Source: Vannielia litorea
GTDB taxonomy: Bacteria; Pseudomonadota; Alphaproteobacteria; Rhodobacterales; Rhodobacteraceae
Direction: 5' to 3'
DNA length: 64,000 bases
NCBI RefSeq assembly: GCF_900142295.1
Contig: NZ_FSRL01000001.1
Coordinates: 1,426,001 to 1,490,000 of the forward strand
The notes below the pieces were generated by a model. The model was given only the letters and a program-made list of their open reading frames with translations, was not told where the DNA came from and ran no database searches. A program made the position numbers and the translations under genes. Positions 4,940-55,719 of this stretch are shown piece by piece (positions within the stretch are counted from its first letter, which is position 1; each line of letters starts with the position of its first letter).

Positions 4940-7348
4940 TCAAGCACGCAGGGCTTTGCCCTCGGGGTCGAAGAGCGGGGTGGTGGTGAGGCGCGCGGGG
5001 CGCATCTGGGAGAGGATCTCGATCTCGGCCTGCTGGCCCTCTTGGGCGAATTCGCGGGGGATGAGCGCCAGGGCGACGGATTGGCGAGCGTGGTGCGAGT
5101 AGCCGCCGGAGGTGCAGAAGCCCACGACCTCGCCATTGATCCAGACCGGCTCGTAGCCGTGCACATCGGCGGTGTCGGCGTCGACGAGGAAGGCCACGAG
5201 CTGCCGGGCGGGCGGGTTGGCGCGCTCGGCCTCTGCATGAGCTCTACCGATGAAGTCGCTGTTCTTCTTGAAGGAAATGAAACGGTCGAGCCCGGTTTCG
5301 GCGGGCGTGTAGTCGGGCGAGAACTCGCGCAGCCAGGAGCCGAAGAAACGGTCGAGGCGCAGCGACATCATGGCACGCATGCCGAAGGGGGTGATGTTGT
5401 GGGCCTGTCCGGCTTGCCACAGCACGTGCCAGAGGTGGCGCTGGTCCATCTGATCACAGTAGATCTCATAGCCGAGGTCGCCGGTGTAGCTGACCCGCTG
5501 GACGGTGCAGGCGACCTGTCCGACCACCATGTGCGCGACGCCCAGGAAGGGGAGCGCGGCGACATCGGCGGAGGTGCAGGCTTGCAGCACGTCGCGCGAG
5601 CGCGGGCCGGCGAGCTGGAAGCCGGTGAGACGGTCGGAGACGTTCTCGACGGTAACGCCTTCTTCAGCATGGTGCTCGAACCAGCGGCCGTGCATCGCTT
5701 GCGCCCCGTAACTCGCTGTAAGGGCGAAGTTTTCCTGGCCCATGCAGGAGATGGTGAAGTCTCCGATGATGCGGCCCTTGGGCGAGAGCATTGGGGTGAG
5801 GCTGATCTTGCCCTCCTGCGGGACGCGGCCTGCCATGATGCGGTCGAGCCAGTCGCGGGCCCTGGGGCCGGTGACGCGGAACTTGCCGAAGTTCTGGATC
5901 TCGTTGATGCCGACGCTCTCGCGCACGGCCCGGACCTCGCGGCCGGTGGCCTCGAAGGCGTTGGAGCGGGTGAAACTGGGCGTCTCGTAGCTCGGTTCGT
6001 CTCCCCGCGCGAAGTAGTTGGGCACCTCGAGCCCGAACTGGTGGCCCCAGACTGCGCCAAGATCGTTAAAAATGTCATACATCGCGGTTGTCCGGTGCGG
6101 ACGGGCGGCGGGGCGCTCCTCGTTGGGGTAGCTGACGGAGAAGCGTTTCTGATAGAATTCAATGACCTTGGGGACGGTGTAGCCCGGGGTGATCCACTTG
6201 CCGTAGCGGCCCACGTCGAGGCCGGTGACGTCACGCTCCGCCTCGCCCTCGATCATCCATTGCGCCAGCGTCAGGCCGACGCCGCCGCCTTGCGAGAAGC
6301 CCGCCATGACGGCGCAGGCGGACCAGTAGTTGCGCAGGCCGGGGACGGGGCCGACGAGGGGGTTGCCGTCGGGGGCGAAGGTGAAGGGGCCGTGGATGAC
6401 GCGCTTGACGCCAGCGCGCTCCAGCACGGGGAAGCGGTGGTAGGCCATCTCGATGCTGTCGGAGACCTTGTCGAGGTTGTCGGGCAGCAGCTCGTGGCCA
6501 AAATCCCAAGGCGTTCCAGCCTCCGCCCAGGGCTCGCAGGGCTGCTCGTAGAAGCCTATGCAGAGGCCGCGGCCCTCCTGGCGGAAGTAGGATTCTCCCG
6601 CGCAATCAAGCACGTGGGGGAACTCGGTGGCGCGCTCGTAGATCTCGGGGATGTCGTCGGTGACGAGGTACTGGTGCGCCATCGGCAGCAGCGGCAGGTA
6701 GACGCCCGCCATGGCGCCGACCTCGCGGGCCCAGAGGCCGGCGGCGTTGACGACGTGCTCGGCGTGCACGGTGCCCTTGTTGGTCACAACGTCCCAGGAG
6801 CCGTCGGGGCGGGGCTTCAGGTCTTCGACCTTGCAGTGAGTCTCGATCTCGGCGCCGGCCAGCTTGGCGGCGCGGGCGTAGGCGTGGGTGGTGCCGGAGG
6901 GGTCGAGGTGGCCGTCGAGCGGGTCGTAGAGGCCGCCGAGGATGCCGCTCAAGTTGACCAGCTCGGCCAGTTCGCCGATCTCCTCGGGCGTGACGATGCG
7001 GGTATCGAGGCCCATGTAGCGGTGCTTGGCGCGCTCCGCTTTCAGCATGTCGAAGCGCTCCGGCGTCTCGGCCAGGGTGATGCCGCCGACGTGGTGGAGG
7101 CCGCAGGACAAGCCGGTGATCTCTTCCAATTCCTTATAGAGACCAATGGTATAGCCCTGGAGCGCGGCCATGTTGGTATCGGAGTTCATGGTGTGAAACC
7201 CGCCCGCCGCGTGCCAGGTGGAGCCGGAGGTGAGCTCGGAGCGTTCGAGCAGGAGCACGTCGGACCAGCCGAGCTTGGTGAGGTGGTAGAGCACCGAGCA
7301 GCCGACGACGCCACCGCCGATGACGCAGACGCGGGTGGTGGTTTTCAT
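4940..7348 (-). CDS. GcvT-family FAD-dependent oxidoreductase (dimethylglycine/sarcosine dehydrogenase type)
   Basis: An 802-residue protein. The N-terminus VCVIGGGVVGCS is a dinucleotide-binding GxGxxG motif of the DAO family, followed by SGSTWHAAGGFH, typical of dimethylglycine and sarcosine dehydrogenases. The C-terminal half, from about residue 430, resembles the folate-binding GcvT fold. Such enzymes oxidatively demethylate N-methyl amines and pass the one-carbon unit to tetrahydrofolate. The ATG at 7348 is preferred over an upstream frame extension because an AGGGAGT ribosome site precedes it and homology begins there. It lies downstream of a Liv-type transporter on the same strand, so the transported compound may be its substrate or precursor (inference). 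The upstream region is rich in repeats. Confidence 0.88.
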   Translation of the reverse strand: MKTTTRVCVIGGGVVGCSVLYHLTKLGWSDVLLLERSELTSGSTWHAAGGFHTMNSDTNMAALQGYTIGLYKELEEITGLSCGLHHVGGITLAETPERFDMLKAERAKHRYMGLDTRIVTPEEIGELAELVNLSGILGGLYDPLDGHLDPSGTTHAYARAAKLAGAEIETHCKVEDLKPRPDGSWDVVTNKGTVHAEHVVNAAGLWAREVGAMAGVYLPLLPMAHQYLVTDDIPEIYERATEFPHVLDCAGESYFRQEGRGLCIGFYEQPCEPWAEAGTPWDFGHELLPDNLDKVSDSIEMAYHRFPVLERAGVKRVIHGPFTFAPDGNPLVGPVPGLRNYWSACAVMAGFSQGGGVGLTLAQWMIEGEAERDVTGLDVGRYGKWITPGYTVPKVIEFYQKRFSVSYPNEERPAARPHRTTAMYDIFNDLGAVWGHQFGLEVPNYFARGDEPSYETPSFTRSNAFEATGREVRAVRESVGINEIQNFGKFRVTGPRARDWLDRIMAGRVPQEGKISLTPMLSPKGRIIGDFTISCMGQENFALTASYGAQAMHGRWFEHHAEEGVTVENVSDRLTGFQLAGPRSRDVLQACTSADVAALPFLGVAHMVVGQVACTVQRVSYTGDLGYEIYCDQMDQRHLWHVLWQAGQAHNITPFGMRAMMSLRLDRFFGSWLREFSPDYTPAETGLDRFISFKKNSDFIGRAHAEAERANPPARQLVAFLVDADTADVHGYEPVWINGEVVGFCTSGGYSHHARQSVALALIPREFAQEGQQAEIEILSQMRPARLTTTPLFDPEGKALRA

Positions 7349-7416
7349 GGTGGCGACTCCCTGGTGTGTTCTGCCTCGATGCTGTGAGGGGAGCGTGGCT
7401 TGTGCTGGCCGTTCAG

Positions 7417-7431
7417 CGACATTGGATGTCG
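7417..7431. promoter_or_regulatory. 15-bp dyad, candidate operator
   Basis: Perfect inverted repeat CGACAT-TGG-ATGTCG between the dehydrogenase start at 7348 and the repeat array. The binding protein is unknown; the call rests on symmetry and position only. Confidence 0.35.
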
Positions 7432-7452
7432 GAAACGGGGAGCGTTCAGGCG

Positions 7453-7472
7453 GGTTAACGGGCGGATTAACC
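7453..7472. promoter_or_regulatory. 20-bp dyad, candidate operator
   Basis: Inverted repeat GGTTAA-N8-TTAACC, 105 bp upstream of the dehydrogenase start. Six-base arms with an 8-base spacer fit a dimeric regulator, but no regulator gene is adjacent. Confidence 0.35.
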
Positions 7473-7489
7473 GTGAAAAGGAGGGAGTC

Positions 7490-7533
7490 ACAACCCATGC
7501 ACAACCCATGCACAACCCATGCACAACCCATGC
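7490..7533. repeat. Four perfect tandem copies of an 11-bp unit
   Basis: The unit ACAACCCATGC occurs four times head to tail without a mismatch. The 11-bp period is close to one helical turn, so each copy faces the same side of the DNA. It sits about 140-185 bp upstream of the dehydrogenase start. It could be a clustered binding site or a simple variable-number repeat. Confidence 0.95.
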
Positions 7534-7635
7534 ATACGCGGATTTGGCCCCGGCGCGCGAGTAACGAAGGTTACCGGGGCGTGACGGTGGGTGTGATCAC
7601 AGACGGGGCGAGGGCGGTCGGATGGTTGGCGAGAG

Positions 7636-7658
7636 ATCCTCGGGGCAGGCCCGAGGAT
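7636..7658. repeat. REP-like palindrome/hairpin at the end of the liv operon
   Basis: Arms ATCCTCGGG and CCCGAGGAT flank a 5-base loop, followed by GACGG. Palindromes built on this core recur between genes in many alphaproteobacteria (family knowledge). It begins 37 bp past the livM stop and could act as a transcript end or RNA-stability element; it has no T-run. A degenerate partial copy (GTCCGAGGGTGACGG) follows at about 7671. Confidence 0.55.
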
Positions 7659-7694
7659 GACGGTTGGCGGGTCCGAGGGTGACGGGAGCCGGGT

Positions 7695-8993
7695 TTACCG
7701 TTCGGGGATCAGGCCGCGCGGAGAGAAGCGCAGGACGAGGAGCAGGACCACGCCCATCGTCAGAAGCCGCATGTGCTGGGCGCTGTCGAGAAGGTGGGCC
7801 TTGAGCCAGGATCCGTCGGCCATGGGCAGGGTGACGAACTCCATCATCGCCCGCCCCAGCGGCTCGACCTGGATCCAGAGCCACCAGACCAGCAGCCCGC
7901 CGAGCAGAGCGCCCAGGTTGTTGCCGGAGCCGCCGACGATGACCATGACCCAGATCAGGAAGGTGAAGCGCAGCGGCTGGTAGGTGCCGGGCGTCAGCAG
8001 GCCGTCGAGCGTGGTCATCATGGCGCCGGCCATGCCGCAGATGGCGGAGCCGAGGATGAAGACCTGGAGATGGCGACGGGTGACATCCTTGCCCATGGCA
8101 CGGGCGGCGGTCTCGTTGTCGCGGATGGCGCGCATCATCCGGCCCCAAGGCGATTTGAGCGCGAGTTGCAGGGCGACAATGATGAGCACGAGGATCGCGG
8201 CGAAGAGGCAACCGTAGAGCAGCTTGACGTAGAGGGTGGAGGCGGTCTCGGGCGGGAGCTTGAACGACGAGGCCCAGCCGCGGAAGGATTCAGAGTGCTG
8301 GAGGTCGATCTCGTAGGGCACCGGGCGCGGGATGCCGTTGACGTTTTTCACGCCGCGGGCGAGCCAGTCCTCGTTCTTCATCACGGCGATGATGATCTCG
8401 GCGATGCCGAGGGTGGCGATGGCGAGGTAGTCCGACCGCAGGCCCAGTGCTGTCTTGCCGACGATCCAGGCGGCGCCGGCGGCGAGCAACCCGCCTGCGG
8501 GCCAGGCGAGGATCACGGGCAGCCCGAGGCCGCCGAGGTAGCCGGTGGAGGCGGGGTTGACCGCTTCGACGGCATCGCGGGCGGGGTCGAACACGAGGCG
8601 GTAGAGCACGAAGCCGACGATCACCACGGCGGCGGTGGCCAGCAGGCGCGTACGCCCCGGCGGCAGCCGGTTGAAGGTGACGATGCCGGCCGCCACGGAG
8701 GCCGCACCGAGCACCAGGCCAGCCCAGAGCCGCGCGCCTCCTGCGGCCCAGGCCTCGGGCACCGGCGGCATGGCGATGAGCACGGAGGCGAGGCCCCCCA
8801 GGGCCACGAAGCCCATGACGCCCACGTTGAAGAGGCCGGCGAACCCCCATTGCATGTTCAGCCCCAGGGCCATGATGGCCGAAACCAGCCCCATGTTGAG
8901 GATGGTCAGCGTGGTGTTCCAGCTCTGGACGAAGCCGGTGCCGATGTAGAGCACGGCAACGAAGAGAAAGAGCAGGGCGGGGTGGAGCTTCAT
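7695..8993 (-). CDS. livM: Branched-chain amino acid-type ABC transporter permease LivM
   Basis: A 432-residue integral membrane protein with about ten hydrophobic segments and the LivM signature region (GLNMQWGFAGLFNVGVMGF near the N-terminus; SDYLAIATLGIAEII and the GAMMTTLDGLLTPG/GGSGNNLGALLGG segments further on). It is longer than the usual ~330 residues because of an extended stretch near residues 90-150. A GGAGG site precedes the ATG. With LivH it forms the channel of a Liv/HAAT importer in the inner membrane. It is the last gene of the minus-strand liv operon, 70 bp after livH. Confidence 0.9.
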   Translation of the reverse strand: MKLHPALLFLFVAVLYIGTGFVQSWNTTLTILNMGLVSAIMALGLNMQWGFAGLFNVGVMGFVALGGLASVLIAMPPVPEAWAAGGARLWAGLVLGAASVAAGIVTFNRLPPGRTRLLATAAVVIVGFVLYRLVFDPARDAVEAVNPASTGYLGGLGLPVILAWPAGGLLAAGAAWIVGKTALGLRSDYLAIATLGIAEIIIAVMKNEDWLARGVKNVNGIPRPVPYEIDLQHSESFRGWASSFKLPPETASTLYVKLLYGCLFAAILVLIIVALQLALKSPWGRMMRAIRDNETAARAMGKDVTRRHLQVFILGSAICGMAGAMMTTLDGLLTPGTYQPLRFTFLIWVMVIVGGSGNNLGALLGGLLVWWLWIQVEPLGRAMMEFVTLPMADGSWLKAHLLDSAQHMRLLTMGVVLLLVLRFSPRGLIPER

Positions 8994-9063
8994 GCGAGCC
9001 TCCGGGGTTCTTCGGTGGGCAGGGCAGTGGGCGCGGTGCGCGCCAGGAGGGCGTGAGCGCGGA

Positions 9064-10074
9064 TCATACGGATTTGCCCTTGAAGAGGCCGGTGGGCTTG
9101 ATGAGGAGCACGATGACCAGGATCGCGAAGCTCACGGCGAACTTGTACTCGGTGGTCAGCAGCTGCAGCAGGCCCGTGGGGGCCAGCGCGTCGGGCAGGA
9201 CGTAGGTGGCGACCTTCTTGAAGGCGTAGGTGACGGTGACCTCGGAAAAAGCGATGACGAAGCCGCCGGCGATGGCGCCCAGCGGGGAGCCGAGGCCGCC
9301 GACGATGGCGGCGGCGAAGATCGGCAGCAGCAGCTGGAAGTAGACGAAGGGCTTGAACGACTTGTCGAGCCCGTAGAGCACGCCCGCGATGGTGGCCAGC
9401 GCGGCGACGATGAGCCAGGTGACGGCGACGACCCGTTCGGGGTTGATGCCCGAGAGCAGCGCGAGATCCTCGTTGTCGGAGAAGGCGCGCATCGACTTGC
9501 CGGTCCGGGTGCGGCCGAGGAACCAGAACAGCAGCACGACGCAGACGGCGGCCACCACCATCGTCAGCAGTTGGGTGGAGCGCAGGGCGAGGCCTTCGTC
9601 CAGCCCGGTCATCCGTTTGAAATTGCCGGCGGAAATGACAAAGCGGGCGCCGTCGGCGAAGTTCTGGTCGTCGACGCCGATGATGAAGCGGGTGATACCG
9701 TTGAGGATGAACATGACGCCGATGGAGACGATCACGAGGATCACCGGCGCGGCCTTTTGCCGGCGGTAGAAACGATAGACCGCGCGGTCGGTGCCGAGCA
9801 CCAGGAGCGCGGTGGCGCAGATGCCGAGGGGCAGGGCGAGCAGCGCGGTGGGCAGCGGCCCGAGGCCGATGCCGAGCGCCTGAAGGCCCCAGGTCAGCAG
9901 GATGGTGATGGTGGTGCCGAAGGCCATGGTGTCGCCGTGGGCGAAGTTGGAAAACCGCAGGATGCCGTAGATCAGCGTGACCCCGAGCGCGCCGAGGGCC
10001 AGCTGCGAGCCGTAGGTCGCGGCCGGGATGATGACGAAGTTGAGGAGCGCCACGACGGCGTTGAGCAGGTCCAT
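9064..10074 (-). CDS. livH: Branched-chain amino acid-type ABC transporter permease LivH
   Basis: A 336-residue membrane protein with the LivH hallmark GVTLIYGILRFSNFAHGD near residue 30 and GLGSPLGAIAGG near residue 265. The ATG at 10074 overlaps the stop of the upstream exported-protein gene in an ATGA, which fixes the start and shows translational coupling. A longer frame upstream is the shadow of the neighbouring small genes. It pairs with LivM as the heterodimeric permease. Confidence 0.92.
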   Translation of the reverse strand: MDLLNAVVALLNFVIIPAATYGSQLALGALGVTLIYGILRFSNFAHGDTMAFGTTITILLTWGLQALGIGLGPLPTALLALPLGICATALLVLGTDRAVYRFYRRQKAAPVILVIVSIGVMFILNGITRFIIGVDDQNFADGARFVISAGNFKRMTGLDEGLALRSTQLLTMVVAAVCVVLLFWFLGRTRTGKSMRAFSDNEDLALLSGINPERVVAVTWLIVAALATIAGVLYGLDKSFKPFVYFQLLLPIFAAAIVGGLGSPLGAIAGGFVIAFSEVTVTYAFKKVATYVLPDALAPTGLLQLLTTEYKFAVSFAILVIVLLIKPTGLFKGKSV

Positions 10075-50592: not shown

Positions 50593-51969
50593 TCAGAAGA
50601 AGTCGATGGAGACCTGCAACAGCCGCTCCACCTCGGGCACGTCGTCGGCCATGGCGAAGAGAACGATCACGTCGCCCTCCTCGATCCGGGTTTCGGCCAC
50701 GGGCTTGATGTATTTCTCGCCACGCATCAGGGCCCCGACCGTCACCCCTTCGGGAAAGTCGATGTCGCGGATGCGCTGGCCGGAGAGCGGCGAGGTGGAG
50801 AGCACCTGCGCCTCGATCACCTCGGCCTCTGCATCGCCGATCGAATAGACCCCGCGGACCCGCCCGTGGCGGATGTGGCGCAGGATCGAGCTGACGGTTG
50901 TGGCGCGGGGGTTGATGTAGGCATCCACGTGGAGCGGGTTCATCAGCGGCACCAGCGTGGGATCATTGACGAGGCAGATCGCCATCGGGCAGCCGTTGGC
51001 CTTGGCGCGGACGGCAGCAAGCAGATTGACCTTGTCGTCGTCGGTGACGCAGAGCACCGCGTCGGCCTTGTCGATGTTGGCTTCGACCAGCAGTTCGCGG
51101 CTCAGCCCGTCGCCATGCAGCACGATGGTGCGCTCGAGCGAATCCGCCGCGCGTTCGGCAATGGCGCGCGAGCGCTCGATCACCTTGGCGCGGATCCGGT
51201 CGGTGCGTTTTTCGAGGGCCTGGGCCACGGCGAGGCCCACGTTGCCGCCGCCGATGATGACGACCCGCTCCTGCTTGCGGAGCACCTTGCCGAAGATCTC
51301 CATCGTGCGGGTGGTGTCTTCGGTATTGGCGCAGACATAGATCTGGTCGCCATCAAAGAGCTGGTCGCCCGGGTTGGGCGCGAAGAGCCGGTTCTTGCGG
51401 CGCACCCCCACCACGATGGCGCGGAGGGTGGAGAAGAGATCGGTGAGCTGGCGCAGCGGCGTGTTGAGAACCGGGCAATCCTCGTCGAGCTGGATGCCCA
51501 GAAGTTGGGCGCGACCGCCCAGAAAGCGCTCGGTGTCGAAGGCGGCGGGTGCGGCGAGGCGCTGGAGCGCGGCTTCGGCCACCTCGCGCTCGGGCGAAAT
51601 CACCACGTCGATCGGCATGTGATCGCGGCGGTAGAGATCGGAGTAGATCGCCGTGAGGTAACTTTGCGAGCGCAGGCGGGCCACCTTTCGGGGCACCGAG
51701 AACACCGAGTGCGCCACCTGGCAGGTGACCATGTTCACCTCGTCGGAATGGGTGGCGGCGATGATCATGTCGGCATCGCGGGCGCCGGCACGGTCGAGCA
51801 CATCGGGGTAGCTGGCGTGGCCTGCGATGCCCTGCACGTCGAGCGAATCCGTGGCGCGGCGCACCAGTTCGGCATTGTTGTCGACCACCGTCACGTCGTT
51901 CCGCTCGCCCGAGAGGTGCCGCGCGATCTGCCAGCCGACCTGGCCCGCGCCGCAGATGATGACTTTCAT
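50593..51969 (-). CDS. trkA: Trk system potassium uptake regulatory protein TrkA
   Basis: A 458-residue cytosolic protein of two RCK repeats: nucleotide-binding starts VIICGAGQVGWQIARHL (residue 3) and VVIIGGGNVGLAVAQAL (about residue 240), each followed by an acidic end to strand 2. It gates TrkH in response to nucleotides. First of the trkAH pair. Confidence 0.95.
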   Translation of the reverse strand: MKVIICGAGQVGWQIARHLSGERNDVTVVDNNAELVRRATDSLDVQGIAGHASYPDVLDRAGARDADMIIAATHSDEVNMVTCQVAHSVFSVPRKVARLRSQSYLTAIYSDLYRRDHMPIDVVISPEREVAEAALQRLAAPAAFDTERFLGGRAQLLGIQLDEDCPVLNTPLRQLTDLFSTLRAIVVGVRRKNRLFAPNPGDQLFDGDQIYVCANTEDTTRTMEIFGKVLRKQERVVIIGGGNVGLAVAQALEKRTDRIRAKVIERSRAIAERAADSLERTIVLHGDGLSRELLVEANIDKADAVLCVTDDDKVNLLAAVRAKANGCPMAICLVNDPTLVPLMNPLHVDAYINPRATTVSSILRHIRHGRVRGVYSIGDAEAEVIEAQVLSTSPLSGQRIRDIDFPEGVTVGALMRGEKYIKPVAETRIEEGDVIVLFAMADDVPEVERLLQVSIDFF

Positions 51970-52105: not shown

Positions 52106-53695
52106 ATGTTGCGCACCCTTGCCCTGATGCTCTGCCTCGCCCCCCTGCCCGCCGTCTCGCAGCAGGACGATCCGGGCAGGCTTTCTCCGCTCGGCCAGGC
52201 CGATGCGATGTTTCAGCTGGCCCAGCGGGTGCAGGGCACCGGCGCGGCGCGGGCGATGCAGCAGATTGCGCTGCGGGTCGCCGCGCGGGCCGCCGGGGCG
52301 GAGGAGCTGGCCCTGGAGCGCCGCGACCTGGAGGAGCGCCGCGACGCGCTGCGGCGCGACATGGCGCTCGACGAGTCAACCAGGCGGCAGCGGCTCGACG
52401 AGATCGACACGGCGCTCACCGTCAACGGCGAGCGTCTGGCCCGGGGCTTTCCCGGATGGCGCGACATCACCGCCCCCGCTCCCGTGGGACTCGACGAGGC
52501 GAAGGGCTTGCTGGCCGAGGGGGAGGCCCTGATCGCCTTTCACCAGGGCGACGAACATCTCTATCTCTGGCTGGTGGCGCGGGACCGGGTGATCTGGCAC
52601 CGGGTTGCACTGCCGCGCGGCGATGCAGCCCAGCTCGTGGCGCTTTTCCGGGAAGGCATGGGGTTGACCGGCACCCTGCGCGGGGCGACCGCGCTCAAGC
52701 CCAAGAGCGCCGCCGCCGAGGTGCCCGACTTCAACCGCCCGCTGGCTGCCAACCTCTACGTGCTGCTCTTCGGCGCTTTCGCGCAGGAGTTGGAGGCCTA
52801 TCCGAACCTCAGGATTGTCCCGGATGGCGCCTGGATCGGCCTGCCCTTCGCCGCCCTTCTCACCGGCTACGACGATGCCACGGCGCCGGTCACGCCTGGC
52901 CTCTTGCGCGAGGCCTCCTGGCTGGTGCGGCGGCATGCCATCACGGTGATGCCCTCGGTGGTGAGCCTGCGGGCCCTGCCCCGCGCCCCGCGCGCATCGG
53001 GTCGCAGCACGCTGCTGGCGGTGGGGGACCCGGTGTTCGCGGGCACGGCCAGCGCGATGGAGGTGGCCCGGTCGGGCGGCGAGGCAGTGGACGTGACGGC
53101 GCTCGCCCCCCTGCCCGGCACTCGCCGGGAGGTGGAGGCCATTGCCCGCGCTTTCCCCGACACCGCGCAGGTGCTGCTGGGCGCGGCGGCCACCGAGTCC
53201 GCCATCCGCGGCGCAGACCTGAGCGACCGCGACGTGATCGTGTTTGCCACCCACGGGCTGATCGCGGGCGAGTTGCAGGGGCTGGAGGAGCCGGCGCTGG
53301 CCCTGACCCCGCCGGGCACGCCGAGCGCAGAGGATGACGGACTATTGACCGCGGGAGAGGTGGCGGGGCTGCGGCTCTCCGCCGATTGGGTGGTGCTCTC
53401 GGCCTGCAACACGGCGGCGGGCGATGGCGAGGGCGCCGAGGGTCTCTCGGGCCTCGCGCGGGCCTTCTTTGCCGCCGGTGCCGAGAGCCTGCTGGTGAGC
53501 CACTGGCCGGTGCGCGACGATGCGGCGGCGCGGCTGACGGCTGCGGCCTTTGCCGAGCTGGAGGCGGACCCCGGTCTCGGCAAGGCCGAGGCGATGCGGC
53601 GCTCGATGCTGGCGCTGATGGCCGACGAGAGCGACGCCACGCTGGCGCACCCGCTGGCCTGGGCGCCCTTCTTCGTGGTGGGAGGCGGCTCGTGA
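52106..53695 (+). CDS. Exported CHAT-domain protease
   Basis: A 529-residue protein with a signal peptide (LALMLCLAPLPAVSQ), a charged coiled-coil-like region at residues ~65-112 and a caspase-like CHAT domain covering the last ~400 residues. The catalytic dyad is His383 in VIVFATHGLIAGE and Cys434 in VVLSACNTAAGD, followed by GLARAFFAAGAESLLVSHWPV, a CHAT hallmark. CHAT proteins are usually cytoplasmic and work with TPR or gasdermin-like partners; this one appears exported. Its stop overlaps the next gene's GTG. The pair runs against the surrounding minus-strand block. Confidence 0.88.
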   Translation: MLRTLALMLCLAPLPAVSQQDDPGRLSPLGQADAMFQLAQRVQGTGAARAMQQIALRVAARAAGAEELALERRDLEERRDALRRDMALDESTRRQRLDEIDTALTVNGERLARGFPGWRDITAPAPVGLDEAKGLLAEGEALIAFHQGDEHLYLWLVARDRVIWHRVALPRGDAAQLVALFREGMGLTGTLRGATALKPKSAAAEVPDFNRPLAANLYVLLFGAFAQELEAYPNLRIVPDGAWIGLPFAALLTGYDDATAPVTPGLLREASWLVRRHAITVMPSVVSLRALPRAPRASGRSTLLAVGDPVFAGTASAMEVARSGGEAVDVTALAPLPGTRREVEAIARAFPDTAQVLLGAAATESAIRGADLSDRDVIVFATHGLIAGELQGLEEPALALTPPGTPSAEDDGLLTAGEVAGLRLSADWVVLSACNTAAGDGEGAEGLSGLARAFFAAGAESLLVSHWPVRDDAAARLTAAAFAELEADPGLGKAEAMRRSMLALMADESDATLAHPLAWAPFFVVGGGS

Positions 53696-55125
53696 TCCGG
53701 GCGGTTCTGCTCTGCCTCTGCCTGGCCGCCCCGGCGCAGGCCCAGGCCCCCGACCCGGTTGACCTGCTCGACCGCTTCGATGCCATCGTGGAAGAGAGCG
53801 GCGGGCTGGGGCTCGAGTTCGAGCTGACCCGCGCGCTGGAGGCCGCCCGTGCCGAGGGGCCTCTGGATGCAGACTGGGCCCGGGTGATGACCGTGGCCGC
53901 CGTGCAGCTGATGGCCGGGCTGGCGCGCTACGAACGCGGCTTTGCGCTTTTCGACGAGGCCGAGACGCTGGTCGAGGACGGCAGCGGCCTGCATCACTTC
54001 GTCCTCGCCTGGCGCGCGTATTTCGAGTTCTGGTGGGGCCATGCAGACCGGGGCCGTGCCACCCTGGCCCGCATCGACACGCCGCTGGAGGACTGGCTGG
54101 GAGAGGAACAACGCGCCTTCATCGCGGACCACCGCGAGGATGCGGCGCGCGTGGCCGCCTCCGAGGGGTTTGCCTATGCCTCCGGCCTTGCCGTGGAAGG
54201 CGGGCAGATGATGGTGCAGGGCGATATCGACCAGAGCGAGCAGATGTTGCGCGGGTTGCGCTTGCCGCCCGAGGTGGCCGAGGCCGAGCCCCTGGTCGCC
54301 GTCTACAATTCGGTGGTGGCGATGAACCTCTTCACCGGGGCGCTGCTGCGCGGAGCGCCCGATCTGGCGCGGGCACAGCTGTTGCTGGCAGTGGACGACC
54401 TCACCACCGGGCCCCCCGAGACGCCGCGGCTGCGGGAGGACATCATCGCCGACCCTGACGCCTGGTCTGCGGCGCAGGACATGCTCTTTGCCATGGCCGG
54501 GCACCTCGACCGCCCCGACGATGCGGATCTCAGGGAGATGATCCTTTCCGCCCTCCGTCCGGGAGAGGGCTCGAGCCCGGCCCAACGGGCGGATTGGTCC
54601 GTGCAGCAGGCGGGAATGGCCGCCGACGCGGCACATTGGGCCAGGGCAGCAGAAGAGGCGGAGGCGGCGCTGGCCACCGGCGCGCTCGATGCCGATGACA
54701 GCCTGACCTGGCGCACCAACCGGGAGATATATCGCGCACGCGCCGCGCGGGAGGCCGGGCAGCCTGTCGATGCGGAGGCGCTGCTTGCCCGGTACGAAGA
54801 GATCGTCGAGGCAGAGGACGCCCTGCCCCTGATCCGGATCTCCCGCACGGCGCTCATTGTCAGCGAGCTCCATCTTGCCGGCGAGAACCTCGTGGCCAAC
54901 CTGATCGGGCGCGATCTCTTCGATTACATGGCCATTCTCCAGGGCCAGAGCCTCCAATCGGGCGAGACCGTGGCCGCGATGGCGGCCTTTTGGCGCGAGG
55001 CGGCGGACCATACCATCGCCGCAGGTTTCATCATGGCGCACCACCCGCAGAACGACGAAGCCGCCCCGGAGGGCGGCTGTCAGACGTTTCTGGAGATCGA
55101 GATGTGCACCGCCAGCTTTCGCTGA
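53692..55125 (+). CDS. Exported helical-repeat (TPR-like) partner of the CHAT protease
   Basis: A 477-residue protein with a signal peptide (AVLLCLCLAAPAQAQ) and an almost wholly helical, Ala/Glu/Leu-rich mature part resembling degenerate TPR units (for example GLARYERGFALFDEAETLVEDGSG and AHWARAAEEAEAALATGAL). It ends with two cysteines (GGCQTFLEIEMCTASFR) that could form a disulfide. The GTG start overlaps the CHAT stop (GTGA), so the two are made in step. No family recognised; it may be the scaffold or substrate of the CHAT enzyme (inference). Confidence 0.75.
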   Translation: MIRAVLLCLCLAAPAQAQAPDPVDLLDRFDAIVEESGGLGLEFELTRALEAARAEGPLDADWARVMTVAAVQLMAGLARYERGFALFDEAETLVEDGSGLHHFVLAWRAYFEFWWGHADRGRATLARIDTPLEDWLGEEQRAFIADHREDAARVAASEGFAYASGLAVEGGQMMVQGDIDQSEQMLRGLRLPPEVAEAEPLVAVYNSVVAMNLFTGALLRGAPDLARAQLLLAVDDLTTGPPETPRLREDIIADPDAWSAAQDMLFAMAGHLDRPDDADLREMILSALRPGEGSSPAQRADWSVQQAGMAADAAHWARAAEEAEAALATGALDADDSLTWRTNREIYRARAAREAGQPVDAEALLARYEEIVEAEDALPLIRISRTALIVSELHLAGENLVANLIGRDLFDYMAILQGQSLQSGETVAAMAAFWREAADHTIAAGFIMAHHPQNDEAAPEGGCQTFLEIEMCTASFR

Positions 55126-55146: not shown

Positions 55147-55719
55147 TCAGATCGCGGTGGAGACCGGCGTGGGGTAGATGAACCCGTCGATCGGATAGGG
55201 CCGGCCATAGGCGTTGGACTGGCTCAGGACCTTGACCACCGACCAGTCGTTCTTGTCGGACACGTCGATCACCGACATGCCAAGGCTGATCTGGTTGCGG
55301 TGCCAGTTGGCGTGGTTGATCTCGATCTCGCGGTCGGAGACCACCTTGGAGACCACGGCCACGTGGCCCATCGGCAGCTGGCGCGTGCCGGAGAAGGCCA
55401 TGACCGCGCCGACCTGCGGCGTGCGGCCGCGAGCGTAGGTGCCGCTGGCGCTGTTCCACCAGGTGTTGGCATTGCCGCGGATCTCGACCCCGCTGGCGTT
55501 GCGCGCAAAGGGCACGCACCAGACGCGGGCCCCGGTGGCGCGCAGGCTGCGGGCCTCGGAGATCGCGTAATCGAGCAGCCCGGGCTTGAGCTGCGGTGCC
55601 GACATGGTCGAGAGCGTCTCGGTGTTGCGCTGAGCGCCGCAGGCGGCGGTCAGCAGGAGCGCTGCACATAGCAGCGGAAGTCGCAGGGCTTTTGCCCGTA
55701 TAGGTCTTGCCAGCCTCAT
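55147..55719 (-). CDS. CHAP-domain lipoprotein (putative peptidoglycan amidase)
   Basis: A 190-residue protein with a signal and lipobox LTAAC (Cys27). The CHAP domain shows Cys68 in WCVPFARNASG, His119 in MGHVAVVSKV and Asn135/Asn138 in INHANW, the Cys-His-polar set that cleaves peptidoglycan peptide bonds. The ATG at 55719 has an AGGGACGG site. Convergent with the CHAT operon, 21 bp apart, so it may or may not belong to it. Confidence 0.85.
   Translation of the reverse strand: MRLARPIRAKALRLPLLCAALLLTAACGAQRNTETLSTMSAPQLKPGLLDYAISEARSLRATGARVWCVPFARNASGVEIRGNANTWWNSASGTYARGRTPQVGAVMAFSGTRQLPMGHVAVVSKVVSDREIEINHANWHRNQISLGMSVIDVSDKNDWSVVKVLSQSNAYGRPYPIDGFIYPTPVSTAI

Follow-up and report, generated by a model that had tools for sequence, protein, structure and literature searches.

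A putative split, exported TPR-CHAT protease encoded by two overlapping genes in Vannielia litorea

In the closest solved CHAT proteases, Csx29 and separase, helical repeats and protease lie in one chain. Csx29 (TPR-CHAT) belongs to the type III-E CRISPR Craspase, where its tetratricopeptide repeats (TPRs) are in the same chain, its partner is Cas7-11 and its substrate is Csx30; it is reported to be switched allosterically through its N-terminal domain and TPR part (PMC10028731). Separases (ctSPD, human, yeast) are, unlike the CHAT protein considered here, eukaryotic, cytoplasmic or nuclear, far longer and bound by securin. Here we analyse two overlapping genes within a 64,000-nucleotide stretch (the window) of V. 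litorea (contig NZ_FSRL01000001.1, positions 1,426,001 to 1,490,000), one encoding a CHAT protease and the other a helical partner. We think it rather likely that together they encode a split, exported TPR-CHAT protease in which the partner serves as a regulatory subunit in trans. With such a natural two-gene form, small and probably exported, one could purify, swap and test the protease and its helical subunit separately, and see what effect a TPR subunit has on the CHAT active site.

The gene pair and its products

The features of the pair are listed in window coordinates (partner types I to III are defined in the next section; G and L numbers are our handles for genomes and loci).

52106..53695, plus strand: CHAT (caspase/separase-like) protease gene, 529 amino acids (aa), export-type start
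52106..52159, plus strand: signal-peptide-like N-terminus of the CHAT protein (MLRTLALMLCLAPLPAVS) by the n/h/c rule given below; MLR start kept in the G002, G003 and G183 orthologues
53252..53254, plus strand: codon of catalytic His383, invariant in 20/20 aligned rows
53405..53407, plus strand: codon of catalytic Cys434, invariant in 20/20 aligned rows
53692..53695, plus strand: GTGA stop/start overlap of the CHAT and partner genes, read from the sequence
53692..55125, plus strand: type I partner gene, product of 477 aa predicted to be helical and TPR-like, GTG start inside the CHAT stop, export-type start
53692..53742, plus strand: signal-peptide-like N-terminus of the partner (MIRAVLLCLCLAAPAQA) by the n/h/c rule, as in 16/16 aligned relatives
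55078..55107, plus strand: C-terminal Cys463...Cys472 pair of the partner, predicted cross-strand disulphide in a beta hairpin

The coordinates, frames and GTGA overlap are exactly as the initial annotation had given them, and the dyad that it called intact is indeed invariant in all 20 aligned relatives. W467, V469 and D471 are invariant as well; together with the specificity of separase, they make Arg/Lys at P1 a first candidate for the cleavage preference. Residues 212-526 of the CHAT protein match the Pfam CHAT family (PF12770, E 1.4e-57, 195.8 bits compared to a curated cut-off of 24); this is its only Pfam domain, with no match to a TPR model, and Cys434 is the single cysteine of the mature protein. 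Comparison of structure models confirmed a separase/Csx29-like fold, the CHAT model aligning to residues 340-750 of Csx29, that is, from residue 340 through the C-terminus. Because the alignment covers Csx29 only from residue 340, the N-terminal and TPR part is missing from the window protease. Searches of solved-structure sequences with either window protein alone gave nothing useful, and the CHAT profile gave weak matches only, the best to stomatin (E 0.0029). That match spans CHAT residues 28-100 (window 52187-52405) and probably reflects shared helical composition.

No Pfam, NCBIfam or PADLOC family matched the partner (E cut-off 1). Its AlphaFold model is an alpha solenoid (mean predicted local distance difference test score 84.5) whose best structural matches on a second look are TPR proteins. 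Among its 16 aligned relatives, Pfam detects TPR_2 in 6 and TPR_12 in 4 (E up to 0.01, best 4.5e-10). As modelled, the partner looks like a diverged TPR-like solenoid, and its description as a helical protein with a C-terminal cysteine pair is borne out.

To judge by their sequences, both proteins are probably exported. N-termini were assessed with a home-made n/h/c signal-peptide rule asking for a positive n-region, a hydrophobic stretch and small residues at -3/-1. With chosen starts, 20/20 aligned CHATs and 16/16 aligned partners passed, compared to 7.8% and 1.9% of shuffled N-termini, respectively; the starts were picked by the analyst, partly by eye, which favours the rule, and one of five cytoplasmic controls (Hfq) was wrongly accepted. 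A stricter run without hand-picked starts accepted ATG alone as start codon and looked no further than residue 160 of each open frame; it passed 16/24 type I, 4/4 type II and 9/10 type III CHATs (shuffled 5-6%), and 4/9 other short CHATs (shuffled 4-6% over all groups). The eight type I misses include non-ATG starts, far-upstream open frames (L039, L040, L104) and a contig cut (L149). The starts of both products, initially proposed as signal peptides, are signal-peptide-like by this rule, but not every type I CHAT passes from an ATG start.

Even cysteine counts and a conserved C-terminal pair support export of the partner independently of this rule. After residue 30, 12 of the 16 aligned partners have two cysteines and 4 have four, always an even number, and the C-terminal pair (463 and 472 in the window partner) is present in all 16. 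AlphaFold places the pair on a small hairpin (E461-466/E469-474), where confidence is low (mean 53). CHAT proteins with signal-peptide-like starts seem common among relatives, as far as sequences can tell, since 41 of 51 fused CHATs passed the ATG-only run, and among the 10 misses are 4 that start right at the edge of a stretch. The view that known CHAT systems are cytoplasmic is hence too strong, and we reject its general form, that all are, on the basis of these 41 relatives and of the transmembrane anti-sigma factor DdvA, which contains the fold. If exported, the window protein and its like would be caspase-fold proteases with a lone catalytic cysteine working in the oxidising cell envelope.

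Pairing across the family and related CHAT loci

The partner and CHAT profiles were scored against 394 genomes of the family with only 4 and 3 candidates per genome, respectively, so that the tallies are lower bounds: the partner profile matches at least 11 genomes (one weakly) and the CHAT profile at least 37. All 12 strong partner matches (136 bits or more) lie directly behind such a CHAT gene; no CHAT was seen in the 13 kb examined for the weak match (G421, 19.8 bits). From the family genomes and the loci of named genomes, 24 such CHAT-partner pairs, here called type I, were obtained. Stop and start overlap by 1 or 4 nucleotides (nt) in 23 of them, as NTGA in 22 and as TGATG in one more, while in the exception (L163) the nearest start follows the stop by one base, and the partner gene is interrupted so that it occupies two frames. 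All 24 type I rows fall into a single group when 98 CHATs are placed in a tree (Shimodaira-Hasegawa-like approximate likelihood ratio test, 95). CHAT and partner distances correlate at 0.93 over 23 pairs (L163 excluded), with 0 of 2000 permutations as high. On a Pseudosulfitobacter pseudonitzschiae plasmid, the Prokaryotic Genome Annotation Pipeline likewise gives a CHAT gene at 6244-7833 and a hypothetical protein at 7830-9266, a 4-nt overlap, and the partner was matched in 47 Pseudosulfitobacter plasmid records. One such plasmid pair (L229, NZ_CP054608.1 20693-37937) adjoins genes resembling repB/parAB; about 4 kb from it is a gene of the caspase family, and about 7 kb from it a trypsin-like gene that carries PDZ domains.

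The CHAT loci come from searches favouring similarity to this family (the best 80 of at least 579 loci, not a random sample), and genes in them were called with a crude script, partly by eye. CHATs below 430-440 bits were left out of the tree and of the sorting of short CHATs. The sorting gave 47: 45 by length plus L039 and L040, which had been put among the long ones owing to long upstream open frames. L145 is counted among the 47, yet by sequence it is a fused TPR-CHAT cut at a contig end. The VIA-align rows do not cover every family, and absence there excludes nothing. Other CHATs of similarly short length lie next to different large genes. Type II neighbours are convergent (4 loci, one group in the CHAT tree), and type III neighbours, of about 900 aa, occur at 10 loci, in convergent orientation at 6 and preceding CHAT on its own strand at 4. 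The remaining nine short CHATs comprise four with an upstream caspase, one with a trypsin (L173), the cut fusion (L145) and three with nothing recognised. Three of the four caspase-linked CHATs have a convergent gene of 575-596 aa (L172 9625-11358, L188 9707-11497, L199 9623-11350). The products of this fourth kind of neighbour resemble one another at 49-80% and have no BLASTP match to types I-III.

A link between neighbour and protease comes from genome G130 (L118), where one 1422-aa chain runs along the type III partner over residues 23-888 (29% over 885, E 1e-100) and then continues into CHAT. The partner part contains clear TPRs, and the protein adjoins the type III CHATs in the tree. Since a type III partner also occurs fused to CHAT, physical association is suggested; this is the main reason to think that separate partners bind CHAT, which the fusion suggests by analogy. 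Elsewhere, the L163 contig carries a type I pair back to back with a CHAT-partner-trypsin set of type III, and two or three fused CHAT genes lie in tandem in genus and family genomes (L054, L057, L123). Fused CHATs at L125 (174-7975) and L126 (5553-13818) lie beside very large repetitive genes that look, by eye, to be of the filamentous-haemagglutinin type.

Caspase genes were found near CHAT, within the stretches examined, at 7/10 type III, 4/24 type I and 2/4 type II loci, and trypsin genes at 8/10 type III and 2/24 type I loci, with caspase, trypsin and 260-aa protein profiles built partly from loci later counted with them. Pfam confirms the caspase at L111, L044, L105, L227 and L229 and the trypsin at L111 and L227; the L229 trypsin, with its PDZ domains, is of another kind. 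Signal-peptide-like starts were detected in 6/7 caspases, 4/6 trypsins, 4/4 260-aa proteins, 3/4 type II and 4/6 type III neighbours (shuffled 4-10%), and among the misses some show a signal at another start and one caspase is cut. A recurring cassette of caspase (PF00656), trypsin (PF00089), TPR-like protein of about 900 aa, often a 260-aa protein, and CHAT, mostly with signal-peptide-like starts, was observed at L111, L112, L114, L117, L157, L183 and L204, and in fused form at L118 and L128; its 260-aa protein has a C-terminal end like NSYYxLTN. On the second contig of the window genome, a trio of caspase, trypsin and 260-aa-family genes (L227 2816-7246, G000:C2) has no CHAT beside it. It is possible, though doubtful, that exported caspase, trypsin, TPR-like receptor and CHAT act as a cascade of zymogens, either periplasmic or on the cell surface, with the pair as one branch. 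The pair between the trk and ntr genes would then be a stand-alone module, and the caspase-trypsin arm would lie on another contig of the same genome. Such a cascade would follow a logic like that of complement and clotting, and the recurring caspase, trypsin, TPR and CHAT cassettes raise the question, open to test, whether alphaproteobacteria have a protease cascade in their envelope.

Proposed role of the partner

What was computed, namely the dyad, the export-type N-termini, the Cys pair, the CHAT fold, the solenoid partner, co-inheritance and the type III partner-CHAT fusion, can be brought together in a split TPR-CHAT protease, for which we infer export itself, complex formation and allosteric control. 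The first protein would be the catalytic half, a CHAT unit of pseudo-caspase and active caspase with three N-terminal helices, and the second a TPR-like solenoid that stands in, in trans, for the TPR domain which fused TPR-CHATs carry N-terminally. The stop/start overlap would cause both to be made together. After transport through Sec and signal-peptide removal, both would fold in the periplasm, and there a disulphide may form between the paired cysteines of the partner. The partner would bind the CHAT subunit and hold or release its active site, probably reading a signal or presenting a substrate, and, once activated, Cys434/His383 would carry out limited cutting of a periplasmic or membrane protein.

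Several observations weigh against a split, exported TPR-CHAT protease. First, the case for export consists of a home-made rule, partly eye-picked starts and cysteine parity, and the rule rejects 8 of 24 type I CHATs once starts are restricted to ATG. Second, the window partner itself has no match to any TPR family in Pfam; Foldseek returned one match only at E 0.001 or better, with a template modelling score of about 0.3, and solenoid matches of such size are commonplace among helical repeats. Third, the correlation of CHAT and partner distances follows from co-inheritance and is no proof of contact. Fourth, types I, II and III have no mutual BLASTP matches at 1e-4, so the argument from the type III fusion reaches type I by analogy only, and gene order is CHAT then partner in type I, compared to TPR then CHAT in the fusions. 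Lastly, the short CHATs L148, L151 and L177 have no recognised partner alongside.

The partner might instead be a dedicated substrate whose cleavage sets free a signal or an active piece, in the way that Csx30 is cut by Csx29, an unlikely alternative in our estimation. According to PMC10028731, Csx30 is a neighbouring gene product cut by the CHAT protease; CHAT and partner are likewise paired at 24 loci, and the tail that bears the C-terminal Cys pair, where the mature model has its lowest confidence, would be a plausible region for cutting or anchoring. However, the analogous type III partner, with recognisable TPRs, is fused N-terminally to CHAT, the place of a regulatory domain, and no conserved cleavage-loop motif stands out in the few invariant partner columns.

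We consider it quite unlikely that the two form a protease-inhibitor pair, with the partner as an exported immunity protein or chaperone that silences a self-harmful periplasmic protease until degraded. The overlapping genes resemble toxin-antitoxin or conflict cassettes, as do the sporadic spread of the partner (at least 11 of 394 family genomes, one weak) and its presence in the 47 plasmid records, and separase is seen bound to securin in the titles of PDB entries. Yet some short CHATs stand without a recognised partner. The gene order is protease before partner, whereas most toxin-antitoxin pairs begin with the antidote gene, and the inhibitors known to us are small or disordered, unlike this large solenoid.

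That the CHAT protein is no working protease but has a sensor or structural role, in the manner of the CHAT part of the anti-sigma factor DdvA, is very unlikely, because a dead enzyme would not need the dyad that is invariant in 20/20 aligned relatives. Most improbable is that the start regions are no signal peptides and both proteins are cytoplasmic: the rule is home-made, accepted Hfq and passes 16/24 type I CHATs from ATG starts, but 20/20 CHATs and 16/16 partners pass with chosen starts despite diverged N-termini, cysteine counts are even with a close pair conserved in 16/16 partners, and 41/51 fused relatives start likewise.

Genomic site and comparison with known systems

The pair is flanked by two genes on the other strand:

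50593..51969, minus strand: trkA, left flank of the insertion site (Pfam TrkA_N/TrkA_C)
55147..55719, minus strand: lipoprotein-like CHAP-domain gene, right flank (Pfam CHAP; lipobox-like start by eye)

Nine neighbours were scanned with Pfam (about 46.6-61 kb of the window). Eight belong to hflX, hfq, trkH, trkA, CHAP, ntrX-, ntrY- and ntrC-type families and one had no match; no Cas gene (Cas7-11, Csx30/Csx31) was found among the nine, which sets the locus apart from Craspase. As initially annotated, the pair runs opposite to a minus-strand block, with hflX-hfq-trkH-trkA on one side and CHAP followed by what we take to be ntrX-ntrY-ntrC on the other. The trkA-CHAT-partner-CHAP arrangement is found in 3 of the 7 genus genomes, whereas the remaining four have trkA directly followed by the lipoprotein-like gene (the CHAP gene, by eye) and then ntrX. 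The pair is thus not fixed between trkA and ntrX, and we rejected the idea that it is a constant part of the trk-ntr block. In a different genus (G183), the pair occupies the same site without the CHAP gene. Foreign base composition was likewise discarded as an argument, the difference being too small (GC 0.695-0.741 within the pair, 0.64-0.68 around it), and nothing points to transport by phages, as the CHAT protein had no match in 50,697 phage records at E 1e-5. In two genomes (G003, L039 10653-13112; G002, L040 10457-12925), the CHAP gene and ntrX are separated by an additional plus-strand gene whose product has about 820 aa. The window's own genome contains a second type I pair, a diverged one (L047 5985-9100; G000:C1, about 1943984-1947100), which sits between homoserine-dehydrogenase-like and glpX/recJ-like genes (names by eye); this site is also occupied in G002, G003 and G006, with similar neighbours in G243. 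Overall, the initial interpretation of the pair is partly supported.

Among described proteins, HetF of cyanobacteria has CHAT, TPR and one predicted transmembrane segment, and HetF-GFP (green fluorescent protein) is mostly at the cell periphery according to PMC8406250. It differs in having CHAT (aa 1-555) and TPR in the same chain and in interacting with FtsI. Some prokaryotic metacaspases have a single N-terminal helix, maybe a signal peptide, according to PMC3501461, whose main text does not use the term CHAT. Metacaspases belong to PF00656 and the window CHAT to PF12770; caspase genes adjoin related CHAT genes. DdvA (8rot, 8rw5), a solved transmembrane anti-sigma factor, contains a CHAT fold that presumably faces the periplasm; it is one membrane chain with an anti-sigma role. 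CHAT-gasdermin pairs also differ, since the window partner is predicted to be helical and has no Pfam match, unlike the beta-rich gasdermin fold. A further comparison is with the uncharacterised fused TPR-CHATs of Alphaproteobacteria, including L055 and L056 of the window genome, which are TPR plus CHAT by Pfam. These are related CHATs with signal-peptide-like starts in 41/51, encoded by one gene of about 850 aa upwards, whereas the window CHAT has 529 aa and the helical repeats lie in a second gene. Among the papers listed in literature searches (titles, abstract starts and passages, with few subscription papers covered), none describes such a pair or cassette. Export-type CHAT starts are not new; what appears new compared to these systems is the two-gene form with a dedicated partner family, together with the linkage of related forms to caspase and trypsin genes.

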